A stretch of 60,920 nt of DNA from Prevotella sp. Lineage in GTDB: Bacteria > Bacteroidota > Bacteroidia > Bacteroidales > Bacteroidaceae. The stretch is from NCBI GenBank assembly GCA_017470345.1, contig JAFUEP010000007.1:1-60920 (forward strand), read 5' to 3'. Positions 1,918-49,690 of this stretch are shown one piece after another. The notes beneath the pieces were generated by a model that worked only from the letters and a program-made list of their open reading frames with translations, had not been told where the DNA came from and ran no database searches. The position numbers and the translations under genes were made by a program. Positions within the stretch are counted from its first letter, which is position 1; every line of letters begins with the position of its first letter.

Positions 1918-2499
1918 TCAGTCGGTCAGGACGACGGTGACGCTCCGGGCCGCTTGGGCACCCATGACGAGCACCTGGGCGATGTCGGCCGTCTTCGAGG
2001 GACCGCTGATGAACGTGCCGTAGCCGTAGTCGTTGAACTCCACGCGGCGGTAGGCCTCGTGCATGTTGTTGACAATCTCGGACTTAGGCAGCAGGATGAT
2101 CAGGTTCTCGGAGATGAACATGACGGCCTTCTCCTTCATCGTCTGCGGTATCCAGATGCAGCCGTTCTCAGCCACGCCGAAGACGCCGCGGATGACGCCC
2201 ACGTCGGTGCCGTTGAGGTCGCGGGCGCGCCCTACGGTGTCGGGGTTGCGCGTGGCGATGGTCACCTCCGGCAGGTTCGTGGCTATCTCCTTGGCCTCGG
2301 GGTAGAGGTCGCGGATGAGCGTGTTGATGTCGCGGTCGCCCATCTCGATGACCTTTCCGCCTACGTTCTGGCTCATGGTGATAAACTGTGCCAGCGGGTC
2401 TTGATAGGTGATGGCGCGTATGTCGCTCAGGTCGGGCATGTCGTACTTCTCGCGCACGTTAGCCCGGTATCTTTTCAGTATATCTTCCTTGTTGCTCAT
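1918..2499 (-). CDS. lutC: LUD-domain lactate utilization protein C
   Basis: This is a 193-residue LUD-family protein, the third subunit of the LutABC complex that oxidises L-lactate to pyruvate in the cytoplasm. The family pattern is visible in the GVIRGVFGVAENG segment followed by WIPQT. The start at 2499 (MSNKEDILKRYR) is preferred; the in-frame extension upstream reads through repeat sequence. It is transcribed after lutA and lutB but separated from lutB by an inserted four-helix-bundle gene and its flanking inverted repeats. Confidence 0.88.
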   Translation of the reverse strand: MSNKEDILKRYRANVREKYDMPDLSDIRAITYQDPLAQFITMSQNVGGKVIEMGDRDINTLIRDLYPEAKEIATNLPEVTIATRNPDTVGRARDLNGTDVGVIRGVFGVAENGCIWIPQTMKEKAVMFISENLIILLPKSEIVNNMHEAYRRVEFNDYGYGTFISGPSKTADIAQVLVMGAQAARSVTVVLTD

Positions 2500-2510
2500 A
2501 ATAATTAAGG

Positions 2511-2980
2511 TAAGAGTGAATAGTGAAAAGTGAAAAATTTGCTTCCGCTTTTCCTTCTTCACTACTTTTCGTTATTCTTCTTTGTCGTTTTTATTGAGGC
2601 AATCAGCAGAGCAAGTATCTCTTGACAATCATTTGTCATGCTCTCGAATTCCTGTTCATTGATATATTCAGTATCTTTAAGAATACTGAGCCAGTAGAGG
2701 GTCTCGTTGCATTCTTTCAGTGAAACATGAAGCTTGTTGATAAAATCTGCCGGGCTCTGCGCGAATGTCGCTTCACTGACCAATGCGCCTATTGCTGTTC
2801 CTGAGCGGAACACCTGATTGAGCATGCCATATTCTTTAGGACTGCATTTGATGAACTTCACCATTCGTACAATCCTAACGGCGAAAAGATAGCTCTTCCT
2901 CGTTAATGGCGAACTGTTTTGTTGTAGATAGGACATCGCGGCGGTAGCAAATTTTTCACTTTTCACTTTTCACTATTCCC
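2511..2980. mobile_element. Inverted-repeat element carrying a four-helix-bundle gene
   Basis: The left arm (2520-2547) is made of AGTGAAA-type units ending in TTTGCTTCCGC. The right arm (2941-2975) is its inverse, ending GCGGTAGCAAA on the outer side of the cargo. The cargo is a gene of the S23/IVP four-helix family. The element sits inside the lut operon; its right arm supplies the last codons and stop of lutB. Calling it mobile is an inference from the structure and from similar arms elsewhere in the window. Confidence 0.6.
2562..2936 (-). CDS. Four-helix-bundle protein (S23/IVP family)
   Basis: This is a 124-residue helical protein of the family known from 23S rRNA intervening sequences and from the Avd accessory protein of diversity-generating retroelements. 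The conserved core is visible: FAVRIV, then QVFRSGTAIGALVSEA, then FINKLHVSLKECNETLYWL. An in-frame start at 2966 would add ten residues encoded by the right repeat arm; the ATG at 2936 just inside the core is preferred. It lies within the lut operon in the same direction and is probably co-transcribed. It is roughly half identical to the frameshifted copy at 55.4 kb. Its molecular role is unknown; nucleic acid binding is the usual suggestion for the family. Confidence 0.85.
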   Translation of the reverse strand: MSYLQQNSSPLTRKSYLFAVRIVRMVKFIKCSPKEYGMLNQVFRSGTAIGALVSEATFAQSPADFINKLHVSLKECNETLYWLSILKDTEYINEQEFESMTNDCQEILALLIASIKTTKKNNEK

Positions 2981-4335
2981 TTAACTACCTCATGGAACGG
3001 TTTTTGGGGGAACTTGAACATCTCGTGGCCCTCCGCCCAGGGGTTCATCTTCATGTTCATCAGGAACGGCGGGATGATGTTGGCCAGGGGCGAGACGGCC
3101 GTGGCAGCCTTGTAGACGGCGGGCGAGCCGAAGAGCACCGACATGCCGCGGCACATCAGCTTCTTCTCGGGGTTGGCCGTGCCGAAGGAGTCGAGCTGCT
3201 GGCGCCACTTGTAGACCTGTTCGCCGAGGTCGATCTTGACGGGGCAGACCGTCTGGCAGCTCAGGCAGAGCGTGCAGGCCGAGACGTTGCCCGAATGGGC
3301 TTGGGGCGAGCGCAGCATGCCCAGGTTGATGCCCACGGGGCCGGGGATGAAGTAGCTGTAGGAGTAGCCGCCCGAACGGCGGTAGACGGGACACGTGTTC
3401 ATGCACGAGCCGCAGCGGATGCACTTGAGCACCTCCCAGTGGTCTGCGTTGCCGATCCACTCGGAGCGGCCGTTGTCGACGAGGACGATGTGCATCTCGT
3501 GGGCTGTGGGGCGCGCCTTGCGGAAGTGCGAGGTATAGGTCGTCGTGGGCTGGCCCGTGCCGGCGCGGCAGAGCATGCGCTGGAAGACGGCCAGACAGTC
3601 GTAGTTGGGTATGACCTTCTCCAGTCCGATGGCGGCGATGTGGAGCTTGGGACACGAGGTCGACATGTCGGCATTGCCCTCGTTGGTGCATACGACGATG
3701 TCGCCCGTCTCGGCGATGCCGAAGTTGACGCCCGTCATGCCGGCGTCGGCCGTGAGAAACTCGTTGCGCAGCGACAGTCGGGCACGGTAGGTCAGGAAGG
3801 TGGGGTCGTGGTTGCCCTTCTCGTTGGAGATGCCCTTCTCCTCGAAGAGCTCGCCGACGTCATCGTGGTTGAGGTGGATGGCGGGCATGACGATATGGCT
3901 GGGCTTCTGGCCCTTCAGCTGGATGATGCGCTCGCCGAGGTCGGTCTCGACGACCTCGATGCCGCGCTCCTCGAGGTAGGGGTTCATCTCGCACTCCTCG
4001 GTGAGCATCGACTTCGACTTCACCATCTTCTTCACGCCGTGCTGGCGGAGGATGCCGTAGACAATCTCGTTGAACTCCAGGGCGTCCTTGGCCCAGTGGA
4101 CGATGACGCCGTTCTTCTCGGCGTTGGCAGCAAACTGCTCGAGGTATTCGTCCAGGTGGGTGATGGTGTGGCGCTTGATGGCCGAGGCCTTCTCGCGCAG
4201 TTGTTCCCACTCGTCGAGCCCCATGGCCATGTTGTCGCGCTTGGTGCGGACGGCCCAGAACGTGGCGTCGTGCCACTTGGCGTAGGTCTGGTTCTTCAGA
4301 AACTCCTTCGCCGCTTTGCTATGCTGTGTACTCAT
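2956..4335 (-). CDS. lutB: Lactate oxidation iron-sulfur protein LutB
   Basis: This is a 459-residue subunit of the LutABC L-lactate dehydrogenase complex. An N-terminal LUD domain is followed by two 4Fe-4S motifs, CIRCGSCMNTCP and CTLCLSCQTVCP. The start overlaps the lutA stop by four bases (ATGA), indicating translational coupling. The last residues (VKSEK) and the stop codon lie inside the AGTGAAA-type repeat arm, so the native C-terminus was probably replaced when the repeat arrived. The catalytic part is unaffected. Confidence 0.93.
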   Translation of the reverse strand: MSTQHSKAAKEFLKNQTYAKWHDATFWAVRTKRDNMAMGLDEWEQLREKASAIKRHTITHLDEYLEQFAANAEKNGVIVHWAKDALEFNEIVYGILRQHGVKKMVKSKSMLTEECEMNPYLEERGIEVVETDLGERIIQLKGQKPSHIVMPAIHLNHDDVGELFEEKGISNEKGNHDPTFLTYRARLSLRNEFLTADAGMTGVNFGIAETGDIVVCTNEGNADMSTSCPKLHIAAIGLEKVIPNYDCLAVFQRMLCRAGTGQPTTTYTSHFRKARPTAHEMHIVLVDNGRSEWIGNADHWEVLKCIRCGSCMNTCPVYRRSGGYSYSYFIPGPVGINLGMLRSPQAHSGNVSACTLCLSCQTVCPVKIDLGEQVYKWRQQLDSFGTANPEKKLMCRGMSVLFGSPAVYKAATAVSPLANIIPPFLMNMKMNPWAEGHEMFKFPQKPFHEVVKGIVKSEK

Positions 4336-12553: not shown

Positions 12554-12596
12554 TGTCGGTGGCTTTTTGGGACATATTGACTGCAAAGTTACAAAA

Positions 12597-12710
12597 AAAG
12601 CACCGAACGCGTGCTTCTCGTAGTGTTAAAAAGGCTTACCCGATATAAGAAATGCCGCTTCTCGATAGTAATATACCCCTATATTACCTTCGAGAAGCGG
12701 CACTTTTGCA
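12597..12710. repeat. Type G palindromic repeat, copy 2
   Basis: A long imperfect hairpin pairs 12650-12675 (contains TGCCGCTTCTCGA and TAATATA) with 12680-12706, loop CCCC. A diverged half-site, GTGCTTCTCG, lies at 12611-12620. It lies upstream of dut. Confidence 0.85.
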
Positions 12711-12886: not shown

Positions 12887-14263
12887 TTATGGCCTCCCCG
12901 TCGCCTGGCGCAGATCGAGCAGGCGGTTCTGCAGCTCGGCCCAGGCGTCGACGCGCTTGTCGAGCGTCTGCTGATAGAGCAGCTGCGCCTCGAGCAGGTC
13001 GCTCATGCTGCAGACGCCCGCCTTATATTGGTTGCGGACGATGCGCAGGTTCTCCTCGGCCTGCTCGATGGCGCGTCGGGCGATGTCGAGCTGCTGGCGG
13101 GCCTCGCCGACGTCGTTGGCCGCCTTCTGCATGCGAATGTTGAGCAGCTGGGCGTTGTCGCTGAGTTGGTCGAGGGCTTTCTGGTGCTCCAGCTTCTTGC
13201 GCTTGACGGCGTGCGAGCCGCCCCACCAGTCGCTGATAGGGATGCTGACGGTGGCGAAGAGCATGGCGAAGGTGCGGTCGTTCTCCAGCAGGTTGTGGTA
13301 GTTGTAGCCGGCACCGATGGCCACCGACGGCAGCAGCCCTCCGACGGCCATCTTCTTCTGCAGGGCCGTCGCTTCTACTTGTTTCTCAAGGAGTTGGTAC
13401 TCGGGAAGTGATTGAAGTGAAGAGTGAAAAGTGAAGAGTGAAGAATTTGCTTCCGCACTAGTTTCTGGTGACGAATCTACAGCGGAAGCAAATTCTTCAC
13501 TCTTCACTCTTAACTCTTCACTTTCATGTAGTCCGCAATACTGCGCCAGCAGCAACCGCACGATGCTGATGCCATTCTTGAGCTTGAGGCGCTGGCTCTC
13601 GATGTCGCCGCGGCGCAGCTCCACCTGCAGCAGGTCGTTGCGCATGGCCACGCCGGCCTGCACGGCCACCTCGACGTCCTTGTGGATGTTGGCGAGGAGC
13701 GAGTCGACGGCGTCGATCGTCTTCTGCTTCTCCTCGAGCGTGACCAGCTGCCAGTAGTATTGCTCCACCTGGCGCTCCACGTCCTTCTGCTTCAGCTGTC
13801 GCTGCAGAAGGCTGGCCTCCTCGCCGACGCGCGCCAGTCGGTTGCCGTTGACGATCTGTCCGCCGGCAAAGACGGGCTGCATGGCCGTGAGGGCGCCGAT
13901 GGTGCCGTTCTTCATCATCGTCATGCTCATCGGAGCGCCCACCGTGGCCAGTATCTCCGGGGGCAGCGACTGGGCCATCATCATGCCCAGCTCGGGCGAG
14001 ATGAACTCCTTCGGGTCGATGTCCATGCGGGCCATGCCGCGGTTGGCGTTGAACCAGGCGCCGGTGGCGCTGACCTGCGGGAAGTATTTCGTCAGGGCCT
14101 CGCGGCGCTGCTCGCGGGCGGCGTCGATGTCGAGCTGCGACTGGCGCATGGCGATGTTGCGGCTGAGGGCCGAGTCCTTCAGCTGCTGGAGGGTGAGCAC
14201 CTGCTGGGCTGCGATGACATCGCAGCATACCAGACAGACGACGGTTGCTATGATCTTCTTCAT
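12887..14263 (-). CDS. TolC-family outer membrane efflux channel
   Basis: This is a 458-residue outer-membrane channel with a signal peptide (MKKIIATVVCLVCCDVIAAQ) and the two long helical hairpin repeats typical of TolC/OprM proteins. It completes a tripartite RND system with the adaptor and pump upstream and overlaps the pump stop by four bases. Residues about 247-283 are encoded by a 112-base palindrome of the AGTGAA type read in frame; they are Ser/Glu-rich (EFASAVDSSPETSAEAN) and foreign to the family. The insertion lies between the two halves, where a loop could tolerate it. Confidence 0.9.
   Translation of the reverse strand: MKKIIATVVCLVCCDVIAAQQVLTLQQLKDSALSRNIAMRQSQLDIDAAREQRREALTKYFPQVSATGAWFNANRGMARMDIDPKEFISPELGMMMAQSLPPEILATVGAPMSMTMMKNGTIGALTAMQPVFAGGQIVNGNRLARVGEEASLLQRQLKQKDVERQVEQYYWQLVTLEEKQKTIDAVDSLLANIHKDVEVAVQAGVAMRNDLLQVELRRGDIESQRLKLKNGISIVRLLLAQYCGLHESEELRVKSEEFASAVDSSPETSAEANSSLFTFHSSLQSLPEYQLLEKQVEATALQKKMAVGGLLPSVAIGAGYNYHNLLENDRTFAMLFATVSIPISDWWGGSHAVKRKKLEHQKALDQLSDNAQLLNIRMQKAANDVGEARQQLDIARRAIEQAEENLRIVRNQYKAGVCSMSDLLEAQLLYQQTLDKRVDAWAELQNRLLDLRQATGRP
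13414..13525. repeat. Palindromic mini-element inserted in tolC-like gene
   Basis: The left arm (13414-13456) and right arm (13482-13525) pair over about 43 bp with roughly three differences; the loop is 25 bases. The arms are AGTGAAG-type tandem units and both end in the core TTTGCTTCCGC, the same core as in the element around the four-helix gene at 2.5-3.0 kb. The element is open in the host reading frame. Confidence 0.93.
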
Positions 14264-19725: not shown

Positions 19726-21051
19726 ATGAACTGGAAACAACTCATCTCCAACTGCCGGCTCGGACAGGAGCACCGCCACCCCGAGCGCCACGACGACCGC
19801 ACGGAGTTCAAGCGCGACTACGACCGGCTCATCTTCTCGGCCCCGTTCCGCCGGCTGCAGAACAAGACGCAGGTGTTCCCCCTGCCGGGCAGCATCTTCG
19901 TCCACAACCGACTGACACATTCCCTCGAGGTGGCCTCCGTAGGGATGTCGCTCGGCAACGACGTTTTTCGTATTCTGTCTTCAAAAAACGGCGGTTTCAT
20001 CGATACGCTTGCCTCTGAGATGGGGCAGATCGTGGCCACTGCCTGTCTGGCTCATGACATGGGCAATCCGCCCTTCGGCCACTCCGGCGAGAAGGCCATC
20101 CAGACCTTCTTCACCGAGGGCAAGGGCCGCCATCTGGAGCACGAGGTCAGCAAGGACTTCTGGGCCGACATCACCCATTTCGACGGTAATGCCAATGCCT
20201 TCCGACTGCTCACGCACAGTTTCAAGGGGCGTCGGCAGGGTGGCTTCGCGATGACCTACTCGACGCTGGCCTCGATAGTCAAGTATCCCTTCCCCTCCAC
20301 GCAATGCGGCAAGAAGAACAAGTTCGGATTCTTTGCCTCCGAGCGCCCTGCCTATGAGGCACTGGCCGACAAGCTCGGCATCCCCCAGATCGCTCCTGAC
20401 CGATGGGCCCGCTATCCGCTGGTCTACCTCGTCGAGGCGGCTGACGACATCTGCTATGAGATCATGGACCTCGAGGATGCCTACAAACTGAAGATCCTCA
20501 CGTTCGACGAGACGCGCCGACTGATGCTCGACTTCTTCGATGAAACCGACCAGAATCGCATACTTGACCGCATCTCCGACGAGGAGGTGAGCGACCCCAA
20601 CGAGAAGATCCAGTATCTGCGGGCCTGCGTCATCAATAAGCTCGAGCATGAGTGTGTCGACGTCTTCGTCGGCCATGAGGCGGAGATTCTCGCCGGCGCC
20701 TTCAGCGGCTCGCTCGTCGATCATATCAGTGCCGTGCCCTGTCAGGCCTATCAGCGCTGCGCCGAGCTGTCGCGCCAGCGCATCTATAAGAGCCGGCCTG
20801 TCCTCGACGTCGAGCTGTCCGGTTATCGCATCATGGCCACCCTCATGGAGCTCATGGTCGAGGCTGTTGAGCATCCTGACCGCTACTACTCGCAGCAGCT
20901 CATCGGCCGCGTCTCCTCGCAGTACGACATCGACAGCCCCGACCTCGAGACGCGCCTCATGGCCGTCGTCGACTACATCAGCGGCATGACCGACGTCTAT
21001 GCCCTCGACGTCTACCAGAAGATTTGCGGCATCTCGCTGCCCATCGTCTGA
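19726..21051 (+). CDS. dgt: dGTP triphosphohydrolase
   Basis: This 441-residue HD-domain enzyme hydrolyses dGTP (and perhaps other dNTPs) to the nucleoside and triphosphate, balancing dNTP pools. Metal-binding parts are visible: HNRLTHSLEV near 61-70 and CLAHDMGNPPFGHSGE near 106-121. The start at 19726 (MNWKQLISNCRLGQEHRHP) fits family members. A dUTPase also lies in this window but far away. The gene is intact and has the GC-rich codon use of its upstream neighbours. Confidence 0.93.
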   Translation: MNWKQLISNCRLGQEHRHPERHDDRTEFKRDYDRLIFSAPFRRLQNKTQVFPLPGSIFVHNRLTHSLEVASVGMSLGNDVFRILSSKNGGFIDTLASEMGQIVATACLAHDMGNPPFGHSGEKAIQTFFTEGKGRHLEHEVSKDFWADITHFDGNANAFRLLTHSFKGRRQGGFAMTYSTLASIVKYPFPSTQCGKKNKFGFFASERPAYEALADKLGIPQIAPDRWARYPLVYLVEAADDICYEIMDLEDAYKLKILTFDETRRLMLDFFDETDQNRILDRISDEEVSDPNEKIQYLRACVINKLEHECVDVFVGHEAEILAGAFSGSLVDHISAVPCQAYQRCAELSRQRIYKSRPVLDVELSGYRIMATLMELMVEAVEHPDRYYSQQLIGRVSSQYDIDSPDLETRLMAVVDYISGMTDVYALDVYQKICGISLPIV

Positions 21052-21078
21052 CAGGACGTCTTTTAGTCACTTTCCCCT

Positions 21079-21109
21079 TTGGCCGTTTCACAAAAATTGT
21101 GTAACTTTG
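21079..21109 (+). promoter_or_regulatory. Promoter of TPR/LuxR regulator, very short leader
   Basis: TTG at 21079-21081 and TAACTTTG at 21102-21109 with 20 bases between them match the consensus. Only eight bases separate the -7 box from the ATG at 21118, so the transcript would have almost no leader. Confidence 0.7.
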
Positions 21110-21117
21110 CCCTTGCA

Positions 21118-22737
21118 ATGAAGCGCAGTCTATGCTTGTGTGCGTTCCTCCTCACCCTGCTGACCGCCTGCTACGACGGACAGCGGCGCGAGATGCTCGC
21201 CCTCCTCGACGAGGCCGACAGTCTCAATCGTGCCTACGCCCAGCTGCCCTCCGACTCCCTCCTGCTTGAGGCCGCCGACTTCTTCGACCGCCACGGCTCC
21301 CGCAATGAGCAAGTCCGCGCCCACTATCTCCTCGGCTGCGCCTACCGCGACCAAGGCCAGGCACCAGAAGCTCTACAGGCCTGGCAAGACGCCATCGACC
21401 GGGCCGACACCACGTCAAGAGATGATAATACATTACAGCGCCTCATGGCAGTCTACGGGCAGATGGCAGAAATGTATCATAAACAATATCTTCCGTTTGA
21501 TGAGCTGACAGCCTTACAGAAATACAGCTTTTATGCATTGGCCGCCAAAGACACATTTAAATATATTCGCAATATCGAATTGATGGCAAAGCCCTATTTT
21601 CTGTTAAGAGATACTTCTAGCATGAAATTTTGCCTTGAAACAGCCCAACGGCTATATAAAAAGAACGGACTTCATCGTGAGGCTATCAGTATTTACGGCC
21701 TTACAATTCATTTATGTGTAGAAAAGGGACTTTTGAATGAAGCAAAGCGTCAGATAGATATTTTTGAATCTCAATCAGGTTTGTTTGATTTAGACGGTAA
21801 CATTTGCAATGGCCGTCAGTCATACTACTATACAAAAGGACTTTACTATATTAAATGCAGACAGTTGGACTCAGCTGAGTATTTTATGAGACGTTTGATT
21901 CCCTTTGAGAGGCATTCTGCATTCAAGGGATTGATGGCAATATACAATGAAAGAGGACAGACAGACTCCATTGTCAGGTTTTCAAAAGCCTATGAAGAGG
22001 CGATTGACAGTCTGAATGAACTTAAAAGTATAGAAACCGTTCATCAGGCATCATCTCTCTATAATTACCATCTTATAACGAACAAGGCCCATCGCGATGC
22101 TCTGCTTGCTTCGAAAAAGATAAGAATACTGTCTTTCGTGTTGATGGTTGCATTGCTGACGGCACTCATCTCTATATATTTATATAGGTCGTACAAAAAG
22201 AGCCGAGACCGTGCCCTAGCAGACTATCTTTCTAATTTGGAAACATTGCGCCAGATGCAGTTGGAAATCGCTATGTACCAAAAACACGAGCAGGAGTATA
22301 AAGAACTCATCGAGCTAAAGAAACTGCAGGTACATGAAATGGAAAATCGTATTTCACAATACGAGGTACAACATGACAACTGTGGCCTCGCAGAAATAAA
22401 GTTCATGAAATCAAAGGAGTATACGCGCTTCAAGAATGAGATGATGTCAAAAGGGTATTCATTTGGGGAAGAAGAACAAACGTTTCTTAAAGAAATACTC
22501 TTTTCCTTCTTCCCTGATTTTGGACGTTTAATGAACGACCATGTGCATGATCTCTCAGAAACAGAAAAGAAAGTTTGCCTGCTCGTCAGGGCGCATGTGA
22601 AGGTTAAAAACATTGCAATACTATTGGACGTGTCAGAGTCTTATATCTCCCATCTTAGAAGCGATCTTCTCCAGAAACTTTTTTTCAGAACAGGCAGTTC
22701 ACGCGATTTTGATAAGGAAATTATGCGGCTTAACTGA
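21118..22737 (+). CDS. TPR membrane regulator with LuxR-like C-terminal HTH
   Basis: This is a 539-residue protein. It has a lipoprotein-like signal (MKRSLCLCAFLLTLLTAC), a TPR-like periplasmic region (about 30-330), one membrane segment (ILSFVLMVALLTALISIYLY, about 345-365), a cytoplasmic coiled coil, and a LuxR/GerE-like helix-turn-helix at about 480-535 (LSETEKKVCLLVRAHVKVKN). It could pass an envelope signal directly to DNA. It probably controls the DUF3244 and large secreted genes that follow. Base composition drops from GC-rich to AT-rich near 21420, inside the gene. Confidence 0.82.
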   Translation: MKRSLCLCAFLLTLLTACYDGQRREMLALLDEADSLNRAYAQLPSDSLLLEAADFFDRHGSRNEQVRAHYLLGCAYRDQGQAPEALQAWQDAIDRADTTSRDDNTLQRLMAVYGQMAEMYHKQYLPFDELTALQKYSFYALAAKDTFKYIRNIELMAKPYFLLRDTSSMKFCLETAQRLYKKNGLHREAISIYGLTIHLCVEKGLLNEAKRQIDIFESQSGLFDLDGNICNGRQSYYYTKGLYYIKCRQLDSAEYFMRRLIPFERHSAFKGLMAIYNERGQTDSIVRFSKAYEEAIDSLNELKSIETVHQASSLYNYHLITNKAHRDALLASKKIRILSFVLMVALLTALISIYLYRSYKKSRDRALADYLSNLETLRQMQLEIAMYQKHEQEYKELIELKKLQVHEMENRISQYEVQHDNCGLAEIKFMKSKEYTRFKNEMMSKGYSFGEEEQTFLKEILFSFFPDFGRLMNDHVHDLSETEKKVCLLVRAHVKVKNIAILLDVSESYISHLRSDLLQKLFFRTGSSRDFDKEIMRLN

Positions 22738-22801
22738 TATTTCCGTTATCAACAATTTACTCAACTTTTTCCTAAGATATATGTAAAGAGCGACTTAACT
22801 G

Positions 22802-22832
22802 TTGGTCAACTTTTTGGTCAACTCTTTTGGTC
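22802..22832. promoter_or_regulatory. Direct repeats, candidate operator
   Basis: TTGGTCAAC occurs at 22802-22810 and 22814-22822, and TTGGTC at 22827-22832, with 12 and 13 base spacing. TCAACTTTTT also occurs at 22761 and 22806. They lie just upstream of the DUF3244 gene and downstream of the LuxR-like regulator, which could bind them (inference). Confidence 0.5.
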
Positions 22833-22864
22833 GTTATAGTTCTGCATGTTTTAGTAAAAGTGTG

Positions 22865-22872
22865 TACTTTTG
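22865..22872 (+). promoter_or_regulatory. Likely -7 box of the DUF3244 gene
   Basis: TACTTTTG matches TAnnTTTG, 36 bases before the ATG at 22908. The -33 region has no good TTG, fitting a promoter that needs an activator. Confidence 0.5.
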
Positions 22873-22907
22873 CATCGGAATATAGTTTAATGATAAAGAA
22901 CAAAAAC

Positions 22908-23291
22908 ATGAAGAAGAAATCATTATTATTCTGCTGCCTAATGACAGTGGGGGCGGTACTTTCAAATGCGAAAGCGTTTGGCGGAAATGAATTGTTTGAA
23001 GTTGAGTTTGATGTCAGATTTTCAGACCCTACTGGTAATCTTGGTGGACATCCCCGCACACCCGTTAGCATACCTAGCGTCACTCAGGACGGCCACGCCT
23101 TTTATTTTAATAATGTGGGCTACGACCTGGAACTGGTGCTCCTTGACGAGGACGGCGACGAGGTTTACTATGTGCCTGTGCCAGTCGGCACGTCTGCTGT
23201 GGTTCTTCCTTCAACGCTTTCTGGCGAGTACGAGCTTCAGCTCTATCCGACTGACAGTATCTATTATTTCTATGGCTATGTTACACTTTAA
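22908..23291 (+). CDS. DUF3244 small secreted protein
   Basis: This is a 127-residue protein with a signal peptide (MKKKSLLFCCLMTVGAVLSNAKA) and a beta-rich domain resembling DUF3244, seen at VGYDLELVLLDEDGDEVYY and LSGEYELQLYPTD. In Bacteroidetes, DUF3244 proteins are often secreted and encoded next to larger secreted proteins, some of them proteases. It is the first gene after the regulator and is AT-rich like the next two. An alternative ATG lies at 22890, in frame, but gives a poorer signal peptide. Confidence 0.75.
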   Translation: MKKKSLLFCCLMTVGAVLSNAKAFGGNELFEVEFDVRFSDPTGNLGGHPRTPVSIPSVTQDGHAFYFNNVGYDLELVLLDEDGDEVYYVPVPVGTSAVVLPSTLSGEYELQLYPTDSIYYFYGYVTL

Positions 23292-23359
23292 TTTCTGCAA
23301 CCACTTACTCCTATCCAATACTTGATAGCTCTTTTGGGCAAGATCACATAAATAAAACT

Positions 23360-25347
23360 ATGAGACATAAATATACTACTTGCGTCGCTATGGCAATGCT
23401 AATAGCGAATATAAATACGCTAGGGCAAGTATCCTTGCCGACTTATAACTCCAGTGATGTGCTGAATATCACACAAAGCCTTCCCGCCGTTCGTCAGGTC
23501 AGAGGCGTTTCCAAAATTATAGTCGATTATGAAGGTGAGTGGACAGCTAGTCAGCGACAGGCTTTTGCTTATGCTTGCGAAATATGGGAAGAAGCGATGC
23601 CGACCACTTTTCCTATAAGAGTCCAGGCAATTATGGATGACACTTATGCAGATGAAGATGCAACGGATGAATCATTGCTATTCGAAGTGCGTCCGACACT
23701 GAGACCTTATGGGAGTGAAAGTACAGAATGGACGAGCCAAACCTATCAAGTCCAACCCAAGGGCTATGCTTTTCATGGTATGGAGAACAGAACTACAATG
23801 TACCATTTTGATTTAGACATGTCCTATTTTAATACACCAGACATGACAATCGTCTATTATCTATACCAAAATATGGACGATATCTATTCTTTTTCGAGAG
23901 ATGAGACTCATGTTGGGACAAAATATGATTTTGTGACTTCAGCATTGCGTAACATTGCAAGGGACTCGGATTCACATGGAGCTACTATCGGGCAAGGAAC
24001 AACAAATTGTGGGTCGACGGGAGTAATCTTAGTCCGTTCGAATATTTTATTTATCAGAAGTTAAAAATGGGAGGGAGTTCAAACGACAGCATCAATTGTT
24101 ATCAAAATGCTGTCAGCAACAATTTCTCGTTTACAGACAATTCAGACAATCTCTATCAGCTTTACACCCCCTCACAATGGGATCCGACGATGTCTTTGAA
24201 CTACTTTGTCGCTGATGAAGACAATAAACTGACTCAACTTCTGAGATGGGACTTCGGGCGTGGCATGGTTTTTCGAGACATTATTGACTCTTCTGTGCAT
24301 GATGCCTTTAAAGATCTGCTCGTATGGGAACCGATATGGCTAGCAATAGGAACGGGACAGCCAGTTGAACCTCTGATCAGTTTACCATCGGTTTATGATA
24401 CTGAGAATTCTATACCACAAGCAGGACATTTATCTATTAATGTTCCTGGTGTTTCTAACCTGTCATCTATGCAAAGAGCCTATTCGGCGGAAATAAATAA
24501 TATGATGGATATCTCACCCTTGGATAGTGTTCAGCAATATATGCAGCAATTCCACCCATGCTATTATAATGGAAGTATCAACACTCCAGGATGGATCGTA
24601 TCGCTCCAAAAGACTGATGGGACATGGGATGCCGTTTACTATACTAACGATGCGGATGAGCCCCTTCAGGTTGACGTGTCAGACTTTACGCGCCATGAAT
24701 CCCTTAGCAGCTATGCCCGCTCTTATGATGGCCATCTGAGATGCCGAGTGACATACGTGCCATATCCTGCAATGAACTTGAAGCGGTGCTCATATTATTA
24801 TGTTCTCAATGCCCAGCCCCTTGAGGTAGATGTTGAACCACAGAAGAGCCGAACGGTGGCTTATAATGAGGACGATGAGTATTGTAAGTGGATTAAGGTG
24901 GAAATCGGTAACCTGGAGGGGGTGACAAATGTTATGGTCGCTCAATATGACGATGGAGATACAGTCCCATATCTCTATAGTGTTCCAAACTTCAAGGATG
25001 GTTACTTTATAGCGTCTGTCGACGTTGAATTTCCAACGGTGTTCACCATCTATACCTACAATTCTGATGGATATTCAACACGGACAGTGACCTATTATCC
25101 AGAAAATCCTGCATCCAATAGCTTATCGTTTGAGCGTGCAGGAAACTGTATCCTCATCTCTTCTAGTGATTCAACTTTCCATGGGGAATATGCCTCAATT
25201 AGGAGCGTGTTGCCTGTATTTTCTGCTCCGTTGTCGGTTAAAATCGAGGACAATAAGGTTGATATTAGTTCTCTACCTAATGGGGCCTATATGCTTAACG
25301 TTGTCGACAAAAGAGGACATGTGCAAAGCTATAAATTTGTGAAATAG
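23360..25347 (+). pseudogene. Secreted metalloprotease-like protein, frameshifted
   Basis: Two overlapping frames join into one protein of about 662 residues if one base is restored near 23961-23967, where RD is followed in the second frame by LGFTWSYYR. A signal peptide opens the protein. The N-terminal part (VDYEGEWTASQRQAFAYA) resembles secreted reprolysin-like metalloproteases. The zinc motif position reads RNIARDLGF where HExxHxxGF is expected, so the active site is absent even apart from the frameshift. A C-terminal sorting-like tail (GAYMLNVVDKRG) is present. It is paralogous to the next gene. A sequencing error cannot be excluded. Confidence 0.72.
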
Positions 25348-25355
25348 AATACTTT

Positions 25356-27878
25356 ATGAATAACTATATTGAAGCGATGAACAAAGAAAGGAAATGGTTG
25401 GGCAGGTTACTGTTGTGTATGTCTGCGCTATTAGCGTGTAGCGGTAATGTTTATGCTTCTGTCATTGACACCGTCACGTTTGTCGACAATAACGTGCCGA
25501 CAGCTACGTTTAAGACACCGACGGCCGCATCTCGGAGCCGACGTCCGATGGTTGGGCGTGGAGGATTTGTGAATGTTGAGGTTGCTGCGTGGCCGTCAGA
25601 AAAGTCTCTTTCATGGCAGTCCATGGTAGAGACGAGCATCAAATTGGCATGTGATTTATGGGCAAATTATCTTGAATATGGTGATAGTATAAAGCTTTTA
25701 CTAAGATTTGACTCCGCTCAGACAGATGATATAAAAACTACTGTCTTTTATACTAATTCTGATGGTTCGGATATCTGCTATCCTTATTCTCTTCAACGTA
25801 AGCTTTATCCTTCGGATGTTGACTCTTCCATCCAGTACGATGCCGAAGTGGCGGTCAATCCAAATGCTACATGGCACTTGGGGATGGGGGATGCCAATGG
25901 TGGCAAGAATCTCACGTTAGCCGTCATGCGCTCGATATCAGCAGCTATGGGCTTTGGCAGTAGTTTCAGGATTGACAGCCGCAACAGAATAGTTCGGAAG
26001 TGTATAGCATATGTAATCTTTGATCATTATGTAAGGAACGCTTTGGGTGAGTATCTCAAAGACATTCCTCTGTCTTCCGGAAACGCGACATCGCAAGCAA
26101 TCAGTGATTTTGTGCAGTCGCGTCGTGGCTCCTTGTGTTTCGATACGGGCAGTGCGACCTATAGTTTGTATGCACCTGATCCTTTTGAGAACGATAAGTC
26201 CCTTCGATATATTGATGTGCCAAATTCCCTCATGTCGGTAGCTATGCCAGATTCCATTGATTTAGAGGTTGATCCTGCTACAATTGACATCCTCGAAACG
26301 CTTGGATGGAATCTTACGACGACGGCATCCTTGGAAATCGTTTGTGAGGATGCCGATTCCACGGGCACAGCTTCTGCTTACCAGCCACATAGATGCTATC
26401 TTTCGTCTACTAATCTGCAGTTCTCTTCACAAGAATGGACATGTCTGTTCCCAGATACCAATGGTATATATCAAACCGTTGCAACATCCGACTCTGCGGA
26501 AATCTATACACCCATCATTGCTGATGCCAACCAATATGACATAACCGCCGATGGTGAGGTCAAGGCTATCATCTTGTTTGAGGGAACGGCAGGTAGCGAG
26601 CACTATCAGGCAAAACGCCAGGTGTGGCTTCAGTTGAAGCCACAGATCAGCTATATCTCTGCCCCTGTGTTCACGCCCAGCGTAATGACAGAAGGTGACT
26701 ATTCTGTCGATTTAGACGTGAAGTATGAAGGATGCTATTACCTGTATGTGACTGTAAGGCCGCAGTATGCGCCCTATCAGACTATTTATTATTCCGAATC
26801 TCCATATTTTACTCATTTTCATTTTGATGATGTCGACTTCTGGGGCAACGTAAGAATAACATTTACTGGCGTCAATGCCTACGGCAACACGACAAGAACA
26901 ATTGTACTGAATGCTCCGGCGGGGAGCCGTCGCAGTGCCGATCATCCCAGTATTGTAGCCGAGAAATCGTCGCTATATCCAGAGCTTGCCGCCACTGACA
27001 CGCTCCGTGTCCACGATGTCTGCACGTTTTGTTTGTCGGATGGCCTGAAGGCTGACTGGCAACTGATGATGGAGGGACGGGAGTCGTGGATGGTGGTCCG
27101 CGAAGCAAACGATTCGGAGGAACTGACGGTCGCGTTCGAGAAAGGGTTGACTGATTTCTTTGCCTTGGAATCAATGTATGACCGTCTCGGGCGACGTATC
27201 TGCAGCGGCCGGGTGTATGCCGTTCGGGGCGACCGGCGCGACTCTATGGACGTCGTCTTCCAGCTCAGTCCTGACCGTCCTATCATAAAGGACGTGCAGC
27301 TGCTTTATGACTATTTCGACTACGATCAAGCCGAATTTATCAATACAAGCATACGCGTCAGTATGGTGCTGTCGCCCGACACGAAGGGAATTTCCTGCCT
27401 ACAGTCGTATATGGATCAGGAAGGGCATACCCATGCTTTCGGCTCATATCATAGTGCGCTGGATTCTGAGAGCAACACGTGGACGTCGCCGTCGTACGTT
27501 CATTGGGACTTTGACCATTTCTTCGATTTGTGCGCATCGGGGGAATTCCATCAGAGTGCTCCCGTCAGGATCTATGTGAATGAATATATCGACCCCTACT
27601 ATATAGACCTGTTCCGCCAGTGGGAGACGACCCTGGACATCGCAGACGTCTCTGGGGCTGACGGCATTGAAGTCAAGGTCAGGTGTCCGGGCGAGATAGA
27701 GGTCATATCGCCTCGGGCTCCTGTCATGTCTGTCTCGCTGGTCGATATGTGTGGCCGCACCATAGCCCGGAGCAGTCGTTCGGGCATACTTTCCTATCCC
27801 CCAAGCTTCAAGGGCGCAGCCGTCATTGTAGTACAGACAAAGGAGGGCGTCTGCAATCTCAAGAGAAGATTGCCATAG
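25356..27878 (+). CDS. Large secreted metalloprotease-like protein without active site
   Basis: This is an 840-residue protein with a signal peptide that contains a possible lipobox (LLAC, Cys about 28). Residues about 90-320 resemble a reprolysin-like protease domain: AVMRSISAAMGFGSS takes the place of HExxHxxGF (His/Glu/His replaced by R192, S193, A196), and SLRYID, NSLM and DILETLGW match the usual elements after the active site. Beta-sandwich repeats follow, ending in a tail like Bacteroidetes sorting domains. It may bind ligand instead of cutting. An alternative start is the ATG at 25377. Composition is AT-rich at first and GC-richer after about 27000. Confidence 0.72.
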   Translation: MNNYIEAMNKERKWLGRLLLCMSALLACSGNVYASVIDTVTFVDNNVPTATFKTPTAASRSRRPMVGRGGFVNVEVAAWPSEKSLSWQSMVETSIKLACDLWANYLEYGDSIKLLLRFDSAQTDDIKTTVFYTNSDGSDICYPYSLQRKLYPSDVDSSIQYDAEVAVNPNATWHLGMGDANGGKNLTLAVMRSISAAMGFGSSFRIDSRNRIVRKCIAYVIFDHYVRNALGEYLKDIPLSSGNATSQAISDFVQSRRGSLCFDTGSATYSLYAPDPFENDKSLRYIDVPNSLMSVAMPDSIDLEVDPATIDILETLGWNLTTTASLEIVCEDADSTGTASAYQPHRCYLSSTNLQFSSQEWTCLFPDTNGIYQTVATSDSAEIYTPIIADANQYDITADGEVKAIILFEGTAGSEHYQAKRQVWLQLKPQISYISAPVFTPSVMTEGDYSVDLDVKYEGCYYLYVTVRPQYAPYQTIYYSESPYFTHFHFDDVDFWGNVRITFTGVNAYGNTTRTIVLNAPAGSRRSADHPSIVAEKSSLYPELAATDTLRVHDVCTFCLSDGLKADWQLMMEGRESWMVVREANDSEELTVAFEKGLTDFFALESMYDRLGRRICSGRVYAVRGDRRDSMDVVFQLSPDRPIIKDVQLLYDYFDYDQAEFINTSIRVSMVLSPDTKGISCLQSYMDQEGHTHAFGSYHSALDSESNTWTSPSYVHWDFDHFFDLCASGEFHQSAPVRIYVNEYIDPYYIDLFRQWETTLDIADVSGADGIEVKVRCPGEIEVISPRAPVMSVSLVDMCGRTIARSSRSGILSYPPSFKGAAVIVVQTKEGVCNLKRRLP

Positions 27879-27983
27879 TCACCCGCCCAATGGGAAAGAC
27901 GGCTCTGATGATGAAATGATGGTCTGCAAGAGGCGCTGACCAGCCATGCTGAAAACAACAAGGAATGCCGCTTCCCGACTTTC

Positions 27984-30218
27984 TTACCAGCCGATTTTCA
28001 GGCGGTGGAGCATGGTTGTGCTCTCGCCGCAGCTGCCCGTGTGCTGGATGTGGATGCCGCCGAAGCGGTTCTTCCTGACCTTGGCTGACAGGTGCACCTC
28101 GTGAGGCAGCGGGCTGTCGGCGGGGCGGGGCGTCGCAGTCGTGACGTCGGCCGTGAGGCGGCCCTTGCTGTAATTGAGAAGGATGGTGCAGCCCGTGCGG
28201 TAGCAGGTGGCGGAGACGGGTTCGGTCAGCGGTCGCACCTCACCATTATTGTATTCCACGAGCAGGAAGTCGACGGCCTTGGCATGCTTCGTTGTGCGGA
28301 TGATGCGCAAGCCGTAGCCCGAGAGCGAGCGCGTGTCGAACTTCAGGCAGACGTCCATGTATTGTCCCGTGGCGGAGCCGAAGCCCTGTCCGGCCGTCTT
28401 GGTCGGGTCGACGTCGAGCTGCAGCGACATGTCGCCATAGGAGCGACGGACGGGCGTGTACATCAGTCGGGCGCCACGCTGCGCCTGCACCAGACCCTTG
28501 CCGACGGCCCCGTTGAATCCCTCGGCGTAGGCCCACATGTCGCGCTGCGGGTCGAATGTCCACCCGTAGGCCGCGGTGTCCTTCGGTTTATAGCCGTCGA
28601 CGGTCCAGTAACCCTCCTTGACGAGGGGTTGCCACTGGCAGGGGAAGTCGCGGAAATCAGTTAAATAATTAACTAATAATTTACTTCTTTCCACAGAAAC
28701 CGACGATTTCATCGGAGCGGTATCGGCGCCAATCGCGCTGCGTTGCGTTTTCGGCATGATTGTTGCTGTCAGCCGGCACCCCTGGTCGGCCTCACTCAGT
28801 CGGTAGGTCAGTTGCGGGGCGTCATGAGAGGTGCTGACGACGATGCCGTCGCGCAGCCAGCTGACGACCGACTCGTCACGCAGTCCCTCGCGCAGCGACA
28901 GCTCATAGTCGAGTCGGGCCGTGTCGCCGTCGACGATGATGCTCGGCTGGCGAAGGAATCGCGGTGGGGGCAGCGGGGTAGGGTGCAGACGGACGTGGCA
29001 GGCAGCCTCGCGTCCGTCTTTTGCTTTAGCCAATATGCAGAAATCAGCGGTTTCATCGGTGTCGTTGTTCAGCCACACATCAGCTTCTCCGTCAGCCTGC
29101 GGCGACAGCAGGGCACGGTCCTCGAAACCTTTCTCAACAAACCATTCGGCCGGCTCGCTGCTCGTCAGGGTGAACACCGCGGGCGACGTCAGCTCCACTT
29201 CGTGTTCTGACAAGCCAAGATAAGGCGTTCTGTCGCCGATGGAATCGATTAAAATCGTGTTTTCGGGCTGTCGGTTGCCGATGATATAGGGCTCACCGTT
29301 GAGCGTAAAACCGCTCTGATAGCAGCGCAGCCACGGCTGCGGGTAGGCCGTCCATCCGACGTAGCTGTCCTGCGGGGCATGATAACGGCAGTTGACCACC
29401 GTGACCGGTCCCCCCTGCTTGCAGAAGAAAGTCTCGCGGTTGGCGCTGCGGACGTAGAAGTCGCAGTCCTCGAAGCGCGGTCCGCTGCCGAAGGTGCTCC
29501 ACAGCGGCTTGGCACCGTAGAGGTCGAAGTCGCAGTGGCGGTAGACGGCGTTGCCGCCGTTCAGGGCGTCGTCGGTGCACTCAAAATGACACCGCTCGTA
29601 GAGACTCTCCCTGGCCCCGTTGAGCGGGTTCAGGTTGAGCCGGCTGACGAAGCGCACGTTGCGGGCCGTCAGCCGTCGCCCGTGGACATAGCCGACGTGG
29701 GCCTGCGTGATGGCGTCGCTGCGGCGCTTGATTGACAGCTCCGGACGTAGCCGATAGTCAAGGTCGACGTTGCAATAGTTGCCCATGGTGAGGTTCTCCA
29801 CGTGGAGCTCGTCGACGTGGAAGTCGAACATAGTGAAATTGCCGATGGCCCCCTGCGTCTGTCCTCGTTGTGAGGCGAAGACGACGTCGCGGGCATCCTC
29901 GCAAAGCCCGATGAAATCGAGCTTTTTGGCCGTTATCTCCATTCCGAACGGCTCGCGCCCGTTCTTCCCGACAGCCACCTCTGGCACGTCAGGATCGTCG
30001 GCCCAGTAGACCCAGGGCCGCACGTAGATGGTCGCCGTGTCGCCGATGGCCGCGATGGCCTCCTGCAGCGAGTTGAACACGTAGGGTCTGGCGGCCGCCT
30101 CACTGTCCGTGAGCGATCCGTCGAGAAGGATGTGCCGGCTGTCGAGCGTCGGCATCGTCTGGGCATGCGCCGTGAGTCCAAGAATGAAAAAGATGATAGT
30201 CAGGTCAAGTCTTGTCAT
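27984..30218 (-). CDS. Pectinesterase-like right-handed beta-helix protein
   Basis: This is a 744-residue secreted protein (signal peptide MTRLDLTIIFFILGLTAHA). Residues about 45-330 match the pectinesterase beta-helix pattern (FNSLQEAIAAIGDTATIYVRP, DELHVENLTMGNYC, CTDDALNGGNAVYRHCDFDL). The central part looks Ig-like and the last 220 residues look like a jelly-roll. The true substrate is uncertain; an esterase or lyase acting on pectin-like glycans is likely. Segment DETADF (DNA 29047) and another near 28.70 kb are encoded by the dispersed GCGGTTTCATCGG-type sequence. Convergent with the secreted protein gene before it. Confidence 0.7.
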   Translation of the reverse strand: MTRLDLTIIFFILGLTAHAQTMPTLDSRHILLDGSLTDSEAAARPYVFNSLQEAIAAIGDTATIYVRPWVYWADDPDVPEVAVGKNGREPFGMEITAKKLDFIGLCEDARDVVFASQRGQTQGAIGNFTMFDFHVDELHVENLTMGNYCNVDLDYRLRPELSIKRRSDAITQAHVGYVHGRRLTARNVRFVSRLNLNPLNGARESLYERCHFECTDDALNGGNAVYRHCDFDLYGAKPLWSTFGSGPRFEDCDFYVRSANRETFFCKQGGPVTVVNCRYHAPQDSYVGWTAYPQPWLRCYQSGFTLNGEPYIIGNRQPENTILIDSIGDRTPYLGLSEHEVELTSPAVFTLTSSEPAEWFVEKGFEDRALLSPQADGEADVWLNNDTDETADFCILAKAKDGREAACHVRLHPTPLPPPRFLRQPSIIVDGDTARLDYELSLREGLRDESVVSWLRDGIVVSTSHDAPQLTYRLSEADQGCRLTATIMPKTQRSAIGADTAPMKSSVSVERSKLLVNYLTDFRDFPCQWQPLVKEGYWTVDGYKPKDTAAYGWTFDPQRDMWAYAEGFNGAVGKGLVQAQRGARLMYTPVRRSYGDMSLQLDVDPTKTAGQGFGSATGQYMDVCLKFDTRSLSGYGLRIIRTTKHAKAVDFLLVEYNNGEVRPLTEPVSATCYRTGCTILLNYSKGRLTADVTTATPRPADSPLPHEVHLSAKVRKNRFGGIHIQHTGSCGESTTMLHRLKIGW
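29047..29059 (+). repeat. Dispersed 13-mer GCGGTTTCATCGG, copy 2
   Basis: Exact copy of the sequence at 10212-10224, with flanks also similar (AAATC before, GTGTCG after). It encodes DETADF on the minus strand. Confidence 0.6.
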
Positions 30219-33032: not shown

Positions 33033-33227
33033 ATTGCGAATTTATTTTACATATTGCGAGTTTTTTGAAGAGAAGCGGTGCTTCTCGGTCAGAGAAGTGC
33101 CGCTTTTCACCTCGAGAAGCGGTCCTTTTCCTCACGAGAAGCACCGCTTCTTTTTGGGAATATGTGTATAATGTTGTAAATCAATGTCTTGTATTTTCTT
33201 GACAATATATTGCGAATTTTATTTACA
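33033..33227. repeat. Type G palindromic repeat, copy 3, with direct repeats at its ends
   Basis: Four half-sites lie at 33066-33152: AAGCGGTGCTTCTCG, GAGAAGTGCCGCTT, CGAGAAGCGGTCC and CGAGAAGCACCGCTT. The first pairs perfectly with the fourth, and by wobble with the second. Imperfect 19-base direct repeats (ATTGCGAATTT plus ATTTACA-like, 17 of 19 equal) lie at 33033-33051 and 33209-33227. The tail (TTGTATTTTCTTGACAAT at about 33189) is shared with copy 4. The remainder of the 720-base gap 32826-33545 holds no gene that I can support; 33241-33420 is unassigned. Confidence 0.8.
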
Positions 33228-48111: not shown

Positions 48112-48139
48112 CACAGTTCATAGTTCACAGTTCATAGTT
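48112..48139. repeat. Two exact 14-bp repeats between ftsA and ftsZ
   Basis: CACAGTTCATAGTT occurs twice in tandem (48112-48125, 48126-48139), immediately after the ftsA stop. It resembles the tandem arms in other gaps but has no core or inverse arm. Confidence 0.75.
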
Positions 48140-48152
48140 TTGAGATAGCATC

Positions 48153-49481
48153 ATGGAAAAAGTAGATATCCTCGACTTCGGAGCTCCCGAAGAGAAGCAC
48201 AGCATCATCAAGGTCATCGGCGTCGGAGGCGGCGGTGGCAACGCTGTCAACCACATGTATAAGGAAGGCATCCACGACGTCACCTTCGTCGTCTGCAACA
48301 CCGACAACCAGGCCCTCAACGACTCGCCCGTGCCCGTCAAGCTGCAGCTCGGCCACGAGGGTCTCGGCGCCGGCAACCGTCCGGCCCGCGCCCGCGCCGC
48401 CGCCGAGGAGAGCCTCGACGAGATCAAGAACATGCTCTCCGACGGCACGCGCATGGCCTTCATCACCGCCGGCATGGGCGGCGGCACCGGCACCGGCGCT
48501 GCCCCCGTCATCGCCCAGGTGTCCAAGGAGATGGGCATCCTGACCGTCGGCATCGTCACCATCCCCTTCCGCTTCGAGGGCAACAAGAAGATCGACCAGG
48601 CCCTCGACGGCGTCGAGGAGATGCACAAGCACGTCGACGCACTGCTCGTCATCAACAACGAGCGGCTGCGCGAGATCTATCCTGACCTCTCCTTCCTCGA
48701 CGCCTTCGGCAAGGCCGACGACACGCTCTCCGTCGCCGCCAAGTCGATCGCCGAGATCATCACCCTGCACGGCAAGATGAACCTCGACTTCAACGACGTC
48801 AAGACCGTGCTGCAGGACGGCGGCGTGGCCATCATGTCGACAGGCTACGGCGAGGGCGAGGACCGCGTCAAGAAAGCCATCGACGACGCCCTCAACTCGC
48901 CCCTCTTGAACGACAACGACATCTTCAACTCGAAGAAGATCCTGCTCAACCTCTCCTTCTCGCACGAGGAGGGCGGCAAGGACAACTTCATGATGGACGA
49001 GATGACCTACGTCCACGAGTTCATGGACAAGTTCGGCTCCGACTTCGAGATCAAGTGGGGCGTCGCCGTCGATCCCTCGCTCGGCAAGAAGGTCAAGGTC
49101 ACCATCCTCGCCACTGGCTTCGGCATGCAGGACGTCGACGGCATGGAGGAGCGCATGCAGCGCCAGCAGACCACCCGCGAGGAGCAGGACCGGCTGGCCG
49201 AGGAGCAGGAGCGCGCCGCCAAGCGCGAGGAGCGTCGCGGCCACTTCTACGGCGACAGCGAGACGAAGCGCCGCTACAAGCGCCGTCCCAACATCTACAT
49301 CTTCGCCCCCGAGGACCTCGACAACGACGACGTCATCTCGGCCGTAGAGCAGACGCCCACCTACAAGCGCACCCGCGAGGTGCTCGCCTCGATCGGCAAT
49401 CCGCAGCCCGTCCCGCAGTCGGCCCAGCGCCCGGACAGCGCCCAGCAGGACGTCGCCCAGGGCGTCATCAGCTTCGTCTGA
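48153..49481 (+). CDS. ftsZ: Cell division protein FtsZ
   Basis: This 442-residue tubulin-like GTPase forms the division ring. The tubulin signature GGGTGTG is at 109-115; the T7 loop and GTPase core are intact. A longer linker rich in Arg, Glu and Gln (about 325-400) precedes a C-terminal end (VISFV) that differs from the proteobacterial FtsA-binding peptide. Last gene of the cluster; a type G palindrome follows. Confidence 0.97.
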   Translation: MEKVDILDFGAPEEKHSIIKVIGVGGGGGNAVNHMYKEGIHDVTFVVCNTDNQALNDSPVPVKLQLGHEGLGAGNRPARARAAAEESLDEIKNMLSDGTRMAFITAGMGGGTGTGAAPVIAQVSKEMGILTVGIVTIPFRFEGNKKIDQALDGVEEMHKHVDALLVINNERLREIYPDLSFLDAFGKADDTLSVAAKSIAEIITLHGKMNLDFNDVKTVLQDGGVAIMSTGYGEGEDRVKKAIDDALNSPLLNDNDIFNSKKILLNLSFSHEEGGKDNFMMDEMTYVHEFMDKFGSDFEIKWGVAVDPSLGKKVKVTILATGFGMQDVDGMEERMQRQQTTREEQDRLAEEQERAAKREERRGHFYGDSETKRRYKRRPNIYIFAPEDLDNDDVISAVEQTPTYKRTREVLASIGNPQPVPQSAQRPDSAQQDVAQGVISFV

Positions 49482-49517: not shown

Positions 49518-49690
49518 TAGAAAAAGCGGTGCTTCTCACTCCGAGAAGTGCCGCTTTTCGACTCAAAAAGCACCGCTTCTCGAATCGAAAAGCACCGCTT
49601 CTTTATGGGGGATGTGTAATAGTCTTGATAATCAAGTACTTGTACTTTCTTGACAATTTGGTCGAATAATTCTTTACAATCAGAGGCCTT
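49518..49690. repeat. Type G palindromic repeat, copy 4
   Basis: Half-sites at 49524-49603: AAGCGGTGCTTCTC, GAGAAGTGCCGCTT, AAGCACCGCTTCTCG and AAGCACCGCTTCT. The tail that follows (TACTTTCTTGACAAT near 49645, ending TTTACAA) is shared with copy 3, so the conserved unit is about 170 bases. The rest of the 343-base gap holds only the ligase promoter. Confidence 0.85.

Follow-up and report, generated by a model that had tools for sequence, protein, structure and literature searches.

The window, i.e., the whole stretch of 60,920 nucleotides analyzed here, carries at 2562..2936 (−) a 124-aa gene of the S23/IVP four-helix-bundle family (PF05635, E=5.1e-24). The gene lies between an upstream lutB (2956..4335, −; LUD domain and 4Fe-4S, Fer4) and a downstream lutC (1918..2499, −; LUD domain), names that follow these LUD and Fer4 domains and the label used in a preliminary description of this DNA. 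It is enclosed by two inverted-repeat arms of 47 nt each, 89% complementary and 392 nt apart. In the S23 sense, the left arm, on the lutB side (2941..2987, −), combines AAGGGAA/AGTGAAA-type heptads with a core TTTGCTACCGC and contains the lutB stop codon (the lutB ORF ends at 2956); the right arm, on the lutC side (2502..2548, −), is the inverse of the left, has the core GCGGAAGCAAA, and stops just short of the lutC start. The preliminary description had placed the arms at 2520-2547 and 2941-2975, enclosing only an S23/IVP gene: they are real and longer than that, the S23 ORF is the sole gene between them, and no nuclease or transposase is encoded by the element. When the 60.9-kb window was scanned for inverted repeats (score ≥36), no pair at gene-sized spacing other than these arms came up. 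The same scan over 119 kb of G320, a genome mostly 96–98% identical to the window (blocks 92–98%), returned six clusters, four at S23 genes (paired by manual position matching) and two elsewhere, i.e., one GC-rich palindrome region and one tandem array of the arm itself. A second S23 element of the window (L007, 55315..55782, +), located after prfB, has a gene broken by a stop and weak arms (score 25–26).

The S23 protein itself is conserved. Its profile match and four-helix-bundle fold place it in PF05635; the closest solved relative is 2RLD (E=1.2e-32), and the AF2 model (pLDDT 95) matches the folds of the S23 proteins solved in 2006 and 2007 (2GSC, 2RLD) and, more weakly, that of Avd of diversity-generating retroelements (4DWL, TM about 0.75–0.77, 10–12% identity). 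The median dN/dS of 0.057 (68 of 210 pairs with usable dS) indicates that the gene evolves under purifying selection. PADLOC gave no match for the three S23 proteins submitted.

We also evaluated how regularly PF05635 genes are accompanied by arms. G000, the 61.6%-complete draft genome from which the window comes, holds ten of these genes, with arms scoring 34 or more at nine and 26 at the broken L007. We measured 127 of 129 fetched loci (L158 and L192 being too short), of which 97 came from hit lists for PF05635 (the full ten of G000 and, for relatives, mostly top-scoring entries, not a random draw) and 30 were the best matches of the window protein, its own locus counted. Arms scoring ≥30 were found at 109 of the 127 S23 loci, including 79 of the 97 hit-list loci, versus 1 of 627 random places in the same loci, and 18 loci fell under the threshold; the association beyond chance that the preliminary description anticipated is therefore borne out. 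Cross-pairs of arms reached this score in 122 of 1500 cases, a figure probably inflated since it includes same-family pairs, which should raise it. The arms are stacks of 7–8-nt units, the unit varying between elements: tandem repetition at ≥83% identity was detected in 87 of 109 armed loci (~80%) versus 5 of 475 controls (~1%), with a period of 7 nt in 48, 8 nt in 16, 14 nt in 16, and other values in 7. At least 2.5 unit copies were present in 60 of 72 non-redundant left arms, the median of those 60 being 4.9. Three-frame stop cassettes were considered as a role for the heptads (left arms 42/72 versus 34% of dinucleotide shuffles, right arms 25/72 versus 16%) and set aside, the signal being weak because right arms are raised too. 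Copying of the outer arm end from lutB codons (TTAAGG/CCTTAA) was likewise rejected as a rule, an identical end being found at unrelated sites.

The same plan extends well beyond Prevotella. Among the best 80 of at least 584 named loci, 72 were armed, versus 0 of 207 controls; by phylum, which was taken from record titles and for the many MAGs may reflect mis-binning, arms were found in 51 of 59 Bacteroidota and in all 21 others, the latter spanning Campylobacterota, Gammaproteobacteria, a cyanobacterium, Clostridia, Acidobacteria, and Lentisphaeria. Nine plasmid regions and one phage contig were fetched out of 28 matches. All nine plasmid regions (seven from cyanobacterial species or strains of Nostoc, Gloeocapsa, and Planktothrix, one from Anabaena, one from Treponema) passed the arm test, the repeat lying >120 nt from the S23 gene in the Anabaena and Treponema plasmids, and the AATCCCC arms of the Planktothrix plasmid gene are the complement of the Nostoc GGGGATT unit. 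Two phage records had an S23 match, and the one fetched was without arms. On the Anabaena cylindrica plasmid (L422), the S23 gene is flanked by cas2 and cas1, which run on the other strand.

These elements occupy many stop/start junctions of protein operons, for the most part running in the direction of both neighbors. Based on codon usage, S23 was co-directional with both neighbors in 94 of 106 loci (three with short flanks were dropped), opposed to one in 10, and opposed to both in 2, each of which had low codon scores on at least one side. A length-based call (79/109 co-directional) was set aside in favor of the codon-based one: it was misled by antisense ORFs in GC-rich genes and makes the window lutB antisense. 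Upstream, the left arm directly adjoins the stop (median distance −0.5 nt, 90 loci); downstream, a median of 12 nt separates the right arm from the following ATG (96 loci). None of the 127 loci contained any of four exact 23S rRNA motifs, and the window copy, between lutB and lutC, is likewise outside a 23S rRNA gene.

Across elements, the repeat unit tracks the protein. Shared arms (similarity ≥0.6) characterized 242 of 252 pairs at ≥70% protein identity, a count that leans on homologues selected by similarity to the window protein, and 8 of 4939 pairs below 50%; in the 97-locus group (79 armed), the corresponding figures were 8 of 12 and 3 of 2681. Arm similarity correlated with protein identity (Mantel r 0.71 for 109 loci, 0.37 for the 79 not chosen by similarity to the window protein), and 0 of 999 permutations reached the observed r in either set. 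Within the close clade (L110–L132; 63–98% protein identity), AGTGAA-type heptads, nearly always with a TTTGCT[A/T]CCGC core, recur at 11 different stop/start junctions of protein operons: lutB|lutC, lctP|lutA-like, mlaE|ABC ATPase, PuuR-like|acyl-CoA ligase, ctlX|P5C dehydrogenase, OAH sulfhydrylase|PuuR-like, proC|PuuR-like, nusA|infB, argG|argC, dxr|rseP, and argC|argD (several gene names score under the curated cut-offs, and the locus ends within infB). The neighbors across these junctions have no evident common function. The inner core is asymmetric, A on the left and T on the right, in 17 of 19 elements readable by eye (exceptions L115 and L124); a regular-expression count resolved the two ends in just 11 of 24 loci, every one of them A/T. 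On this comparative evidence, the arms are part of the element, not a property of the site.

Many sites in relatives are unoccupied. The preliminary description had looked to the lutB-lutC junctions of related genomes, and most were indeed empty: the S23 gene was present in 3 of 70 loci, the window's own genome counted (lutC alone was located in two of these loci). Outside the 70, the loci found via the S23 gene include L111, L112, and L125, where the lut junction is likewise occupied. Other lut loci of the 70 carry a single heptad stack or a gene-less palindrome (L048), and the L043 lut locus reads like an S23 gene 3′ end fused to lutB. At nusA|infB and dxr|rseP, the S23 gene was absent from 29 of 29 other loci each; downstream of prfB it was found in 1 of 29 (L322), with different arms, and in six further loci it was on the other side of prfB. 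Most sampled relatives are without the element at each of the four junctions examined, and tandem stacks without S23, with many units, are common at these same junctions.

Comparison of G000 with G320 gave a closer view. Of nine elements compared (L001, cut by a contig end, stays outside), G320 has the S23 gene at six (lut, L002, L003, L005, L008, L010) and none at L004, L006, and L007. At L006, a 39-nt spacer replaces the 482-bp element, and the last codons before it differ synonymously between the two genomes; at L007, after prfB, 7 nt differ. The L004 junction (G320 contig 5, 180657–181283) holds a different small gene instead, whose product looks like an ORF6N-type protein. Between-species comparisons at lut, prfB, and L006 revealed no target duplication, and loss is not always separable from gain, since all comparisons are between species with no strain-level insertion seen.

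Short hairpins without the gene share the element's ends. The end motif (≤2 mismatches) occurs 43+47 times in G000 (90 sites) and 59+57 times in G320, with 0 matches for the reversed control in both (1 match in two of 11 genomes). Four other carrier genomes have 12–47 copies and five genomes without a close relative of the window gene have 0, a contrast confounded because the latter may also be more distant. In G000, 19 motif pairs in + then − order within 120 bp are gene-less hairpins, and one pair is gene-sized. One such hairpin lies in the window at 13415..13523 (no strand assigned), with AGTGAAG/AGTGAAA heptads and, at both ends, the TTTGCTTCCGC core common with the S23 element. These short gene-less palindromes bearing the element's ends are MITE-like derivatives. 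The idea that the element is the parent of the window's short palindromes would fit the hairpin at 13415..13523; other palindromes of the window, e.g., those of AGAAGCGG or GGAGTGAGG type, are without the end motif.

We also searched for enzymes that might act in trans. RVT_1 had no match in six S23-rich genus members (G000, G320, G384, G028, G008, G004; drafts G000 and G384 are 62% and 76% complete), and a reverse transcriptase acting in trans was rejected on this sample; matches occurred in S23-bearing G161 and G059 and in S23-less G010, G024, and G003. A Y1 transposase had no match in the S23-rich drafts G320 (93% complete) and G008 (90%), whereas five further S23-rich members of the genus gave one (only a partial, weak match in G000), as did G059. 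Neither enzyme consistently accompanies S23 elements. The one Rfam match obtained, with a human lncRNA family, was below threshold and is regarded as fortuitous.

Taken together, these patterns make it probable that the unit of interest is a ~480-bp mobile element composed of a left arm (about five tandem heptads plus core), the S23 gene, and an inverse right arm. The mobile-element interpretation of the preliminary description is supported: the element sits in ordinary protein operons with no need for rRNA, relatives do not uniformly carry the gene here without arms, and arms accompany other members of the gene family. How it would work is a more tentative matter. With no G-U excess among arm mismatches, no RVT_1 in six genomes, and no Y1 in two, we favor recognition of the heptads by an S23 ring together with movement by host enzymes. 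The S23 protein, one of whose solved relatives is a pentameric ring, would bind heptad stacks, perhaps with about one unit per protomer, and would also serve gene-less hairpins in trans, a proposal we hold at slightly under an even chance. Such recognition could explain why unit and protein change together, and the 4–6 unit copies per arm fit a pentamer only loosely. TRAP-like ring proteins, which bind tandem RNA triplets, offer a likeness to the proposed S23 ring. Movement may proceed by host DNA enzymes with replacement of the old spacer, a weaker suggestion in which replacement is read from the lack of a visible target duplication and the host enzymes are a guess. The stem may also be cut by RNase III in the mRNA, by analogy with rRNA intervening sequences. 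At a stop/start junction the element would be tolerated, since its left arm can provide a stop codon and its right arm leaves only a short distance to the following ATG.

An alternative, which we consider unlikely, is that selection acts at the RNA level on an RNase III-cut hairpin in operon mRNA, the S23 gene being a passenger and mobility rare and incidental. The sense orientation of 94 of 106 loci fits this, as does the cutting of the Coxiella rRNA element stem by RNase III (PMC4990558), and the computed fold of the whole element is a single long hairpin (−152.9 kcal/mol, z −6.5), although such a fold follows from the inverted repeat itself. However, an RNA stem should tolerate G.U, and G.U mismatches are not in excess, which leaves selection on an RNA stem unsupported: A.C and G.U numbered 181 and 129 (163 versus 118 in the 97-locus sample; 37 versus 39 per element). 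The S23 protein is, moreover, conserved and co-varies with the arms, against expectation for a passenger.

Still less probable, in our view, is that the host makes the repeats, i.e., that slippage and fold-back copying build heptad palindromes and the only route of S23 between species is homologous exchange of entire junctions. Solo many-unit stacks at the same junctions in S23-less loci would be expected from such a process, and the spacer at 48112 is wholly replaced between two close genomes; yet identical arms recur at 11 unrelated junctions, and the fixed A-left/T-right difference, kept by 17 of 19 readable elements, would be erased by arm copying. A gene that is not selfish, i.e., an ordinary regulator or a toxin-antitoxin-like gene with the arms as operator repeats, would fit the purifying selection and unit-protein co-variation described above, but the patchy presence at each junction examined, the lack of any evident function shared by the neighbors, and the missing PADLOC match for three S23 proteins make this a very improbable account.

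Among known systems, the intervening sequences of 23S rRNA, the inserts from which the S23 gene is mainly known, are one of the nearest. S23 ORFs in such sequences are described for Coxiella and, as cited, for Leptospira, Xanthomonas, and Brucella; this source gives tandem GACAGAT heptamers directly before the Coxiella ORF, calls the origin of rRNA intervening sequences unclear, and describes the S23 protein without a known function (PMC4990558). Both share a sense S23 ORF within a long terminal inverted repeat, whereas the present elements lie in protein operons, with many copies per genome, many units, and gene-less derivatives; the Coxiella ORF is reported to be decaying (PMC4990558), in contrast to the window gene, which is under purifying selection. 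Our best reading is that S23 elements form a widespread mobile family of which rRNA intervening sequences are a special case. Avd resembles S23 in fold and differs in its RVT_1 partner, without match in the six S23-rich genus members. MITEs and insertion sequences similarly have terminal inverted repeats and short gene-less forms with the same ends, but the S23 element has no transposase, its ends are tandem heptads, and no target duplication was seen at the three sites noted above.

Heptameric intergenic repeats have been reported in Xanthomonas and Nostoc, with 70 and 75 inverted pairs, most often of four units, in two xanthomonads; these resemble S23 arms as tandem heptamers in intergenic places, but a link to S23 is not made in the available sections (PMC4692102). 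Stacks of TAACTGA close to start codons have been reported for Beggiatoaceae (PMC4679880), and for Flavobacterium columnare a table lists a four helix bundle gene flanked by the genes for guanylate kinase and a nicotinate-nucleotide adenylyltransferase (PMC5524665). The open-access literature searched yielded no description of S23 elements at genome scale. We suggest, with somewhat less than even confidence, that S23 elements may constitute their own mobile class, in at least seven phyla, whose sole protein would be a small heptamer-recognizing four-helix ring; they would enter operon stop/start junctions in sense and spawn gene-less hairpins and solo stacks, and both rRNA intervening sequences and the unexplained intergenic heptamer repeats of Bacteroidota, cyanobacteria, and perhaps Xanthomonas would derive from them. 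The multi-copy non-rRNA form, in which protein and unit change together, offers a testable substrate for the S23 protein, i.e., its own heptads, and S23 elements offer a source both for heptameric intergenic repeats and for rapid spacer rewriting between operon genes.

Several further features were noted in the window and G320. A segment of ~6.9 kb (21049–27997), with open frames 21079–22737 and 23360–27878, is absent from G320. On contig 5, G320 has GC-rich palindromes (gagacccc...ggggtctc type) at places corresponding to window 12565–12581 and 1736–1911, which the window is without, the latter region having its own 8-mer palindrome (1823–1908) instead. The same contig carries, at 13238–13610, eight tandem copies of the inner arm motif at 46-bp spacing followed by one inverted copy. 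Before an ATG, at window 48112–48153, ACAGTTC/ATAGTTC heptads stand where G320 has CCAAACGA-type octads between nearly identical flanks, and these octads resemble the right end of the L001, L011, and L018 elements. Another palindrome family, with AGAAGCGGTGCTTCTC-like units, occurs in the window at 260–340, 12650–12705, 33068–33154, and 49521–49603.
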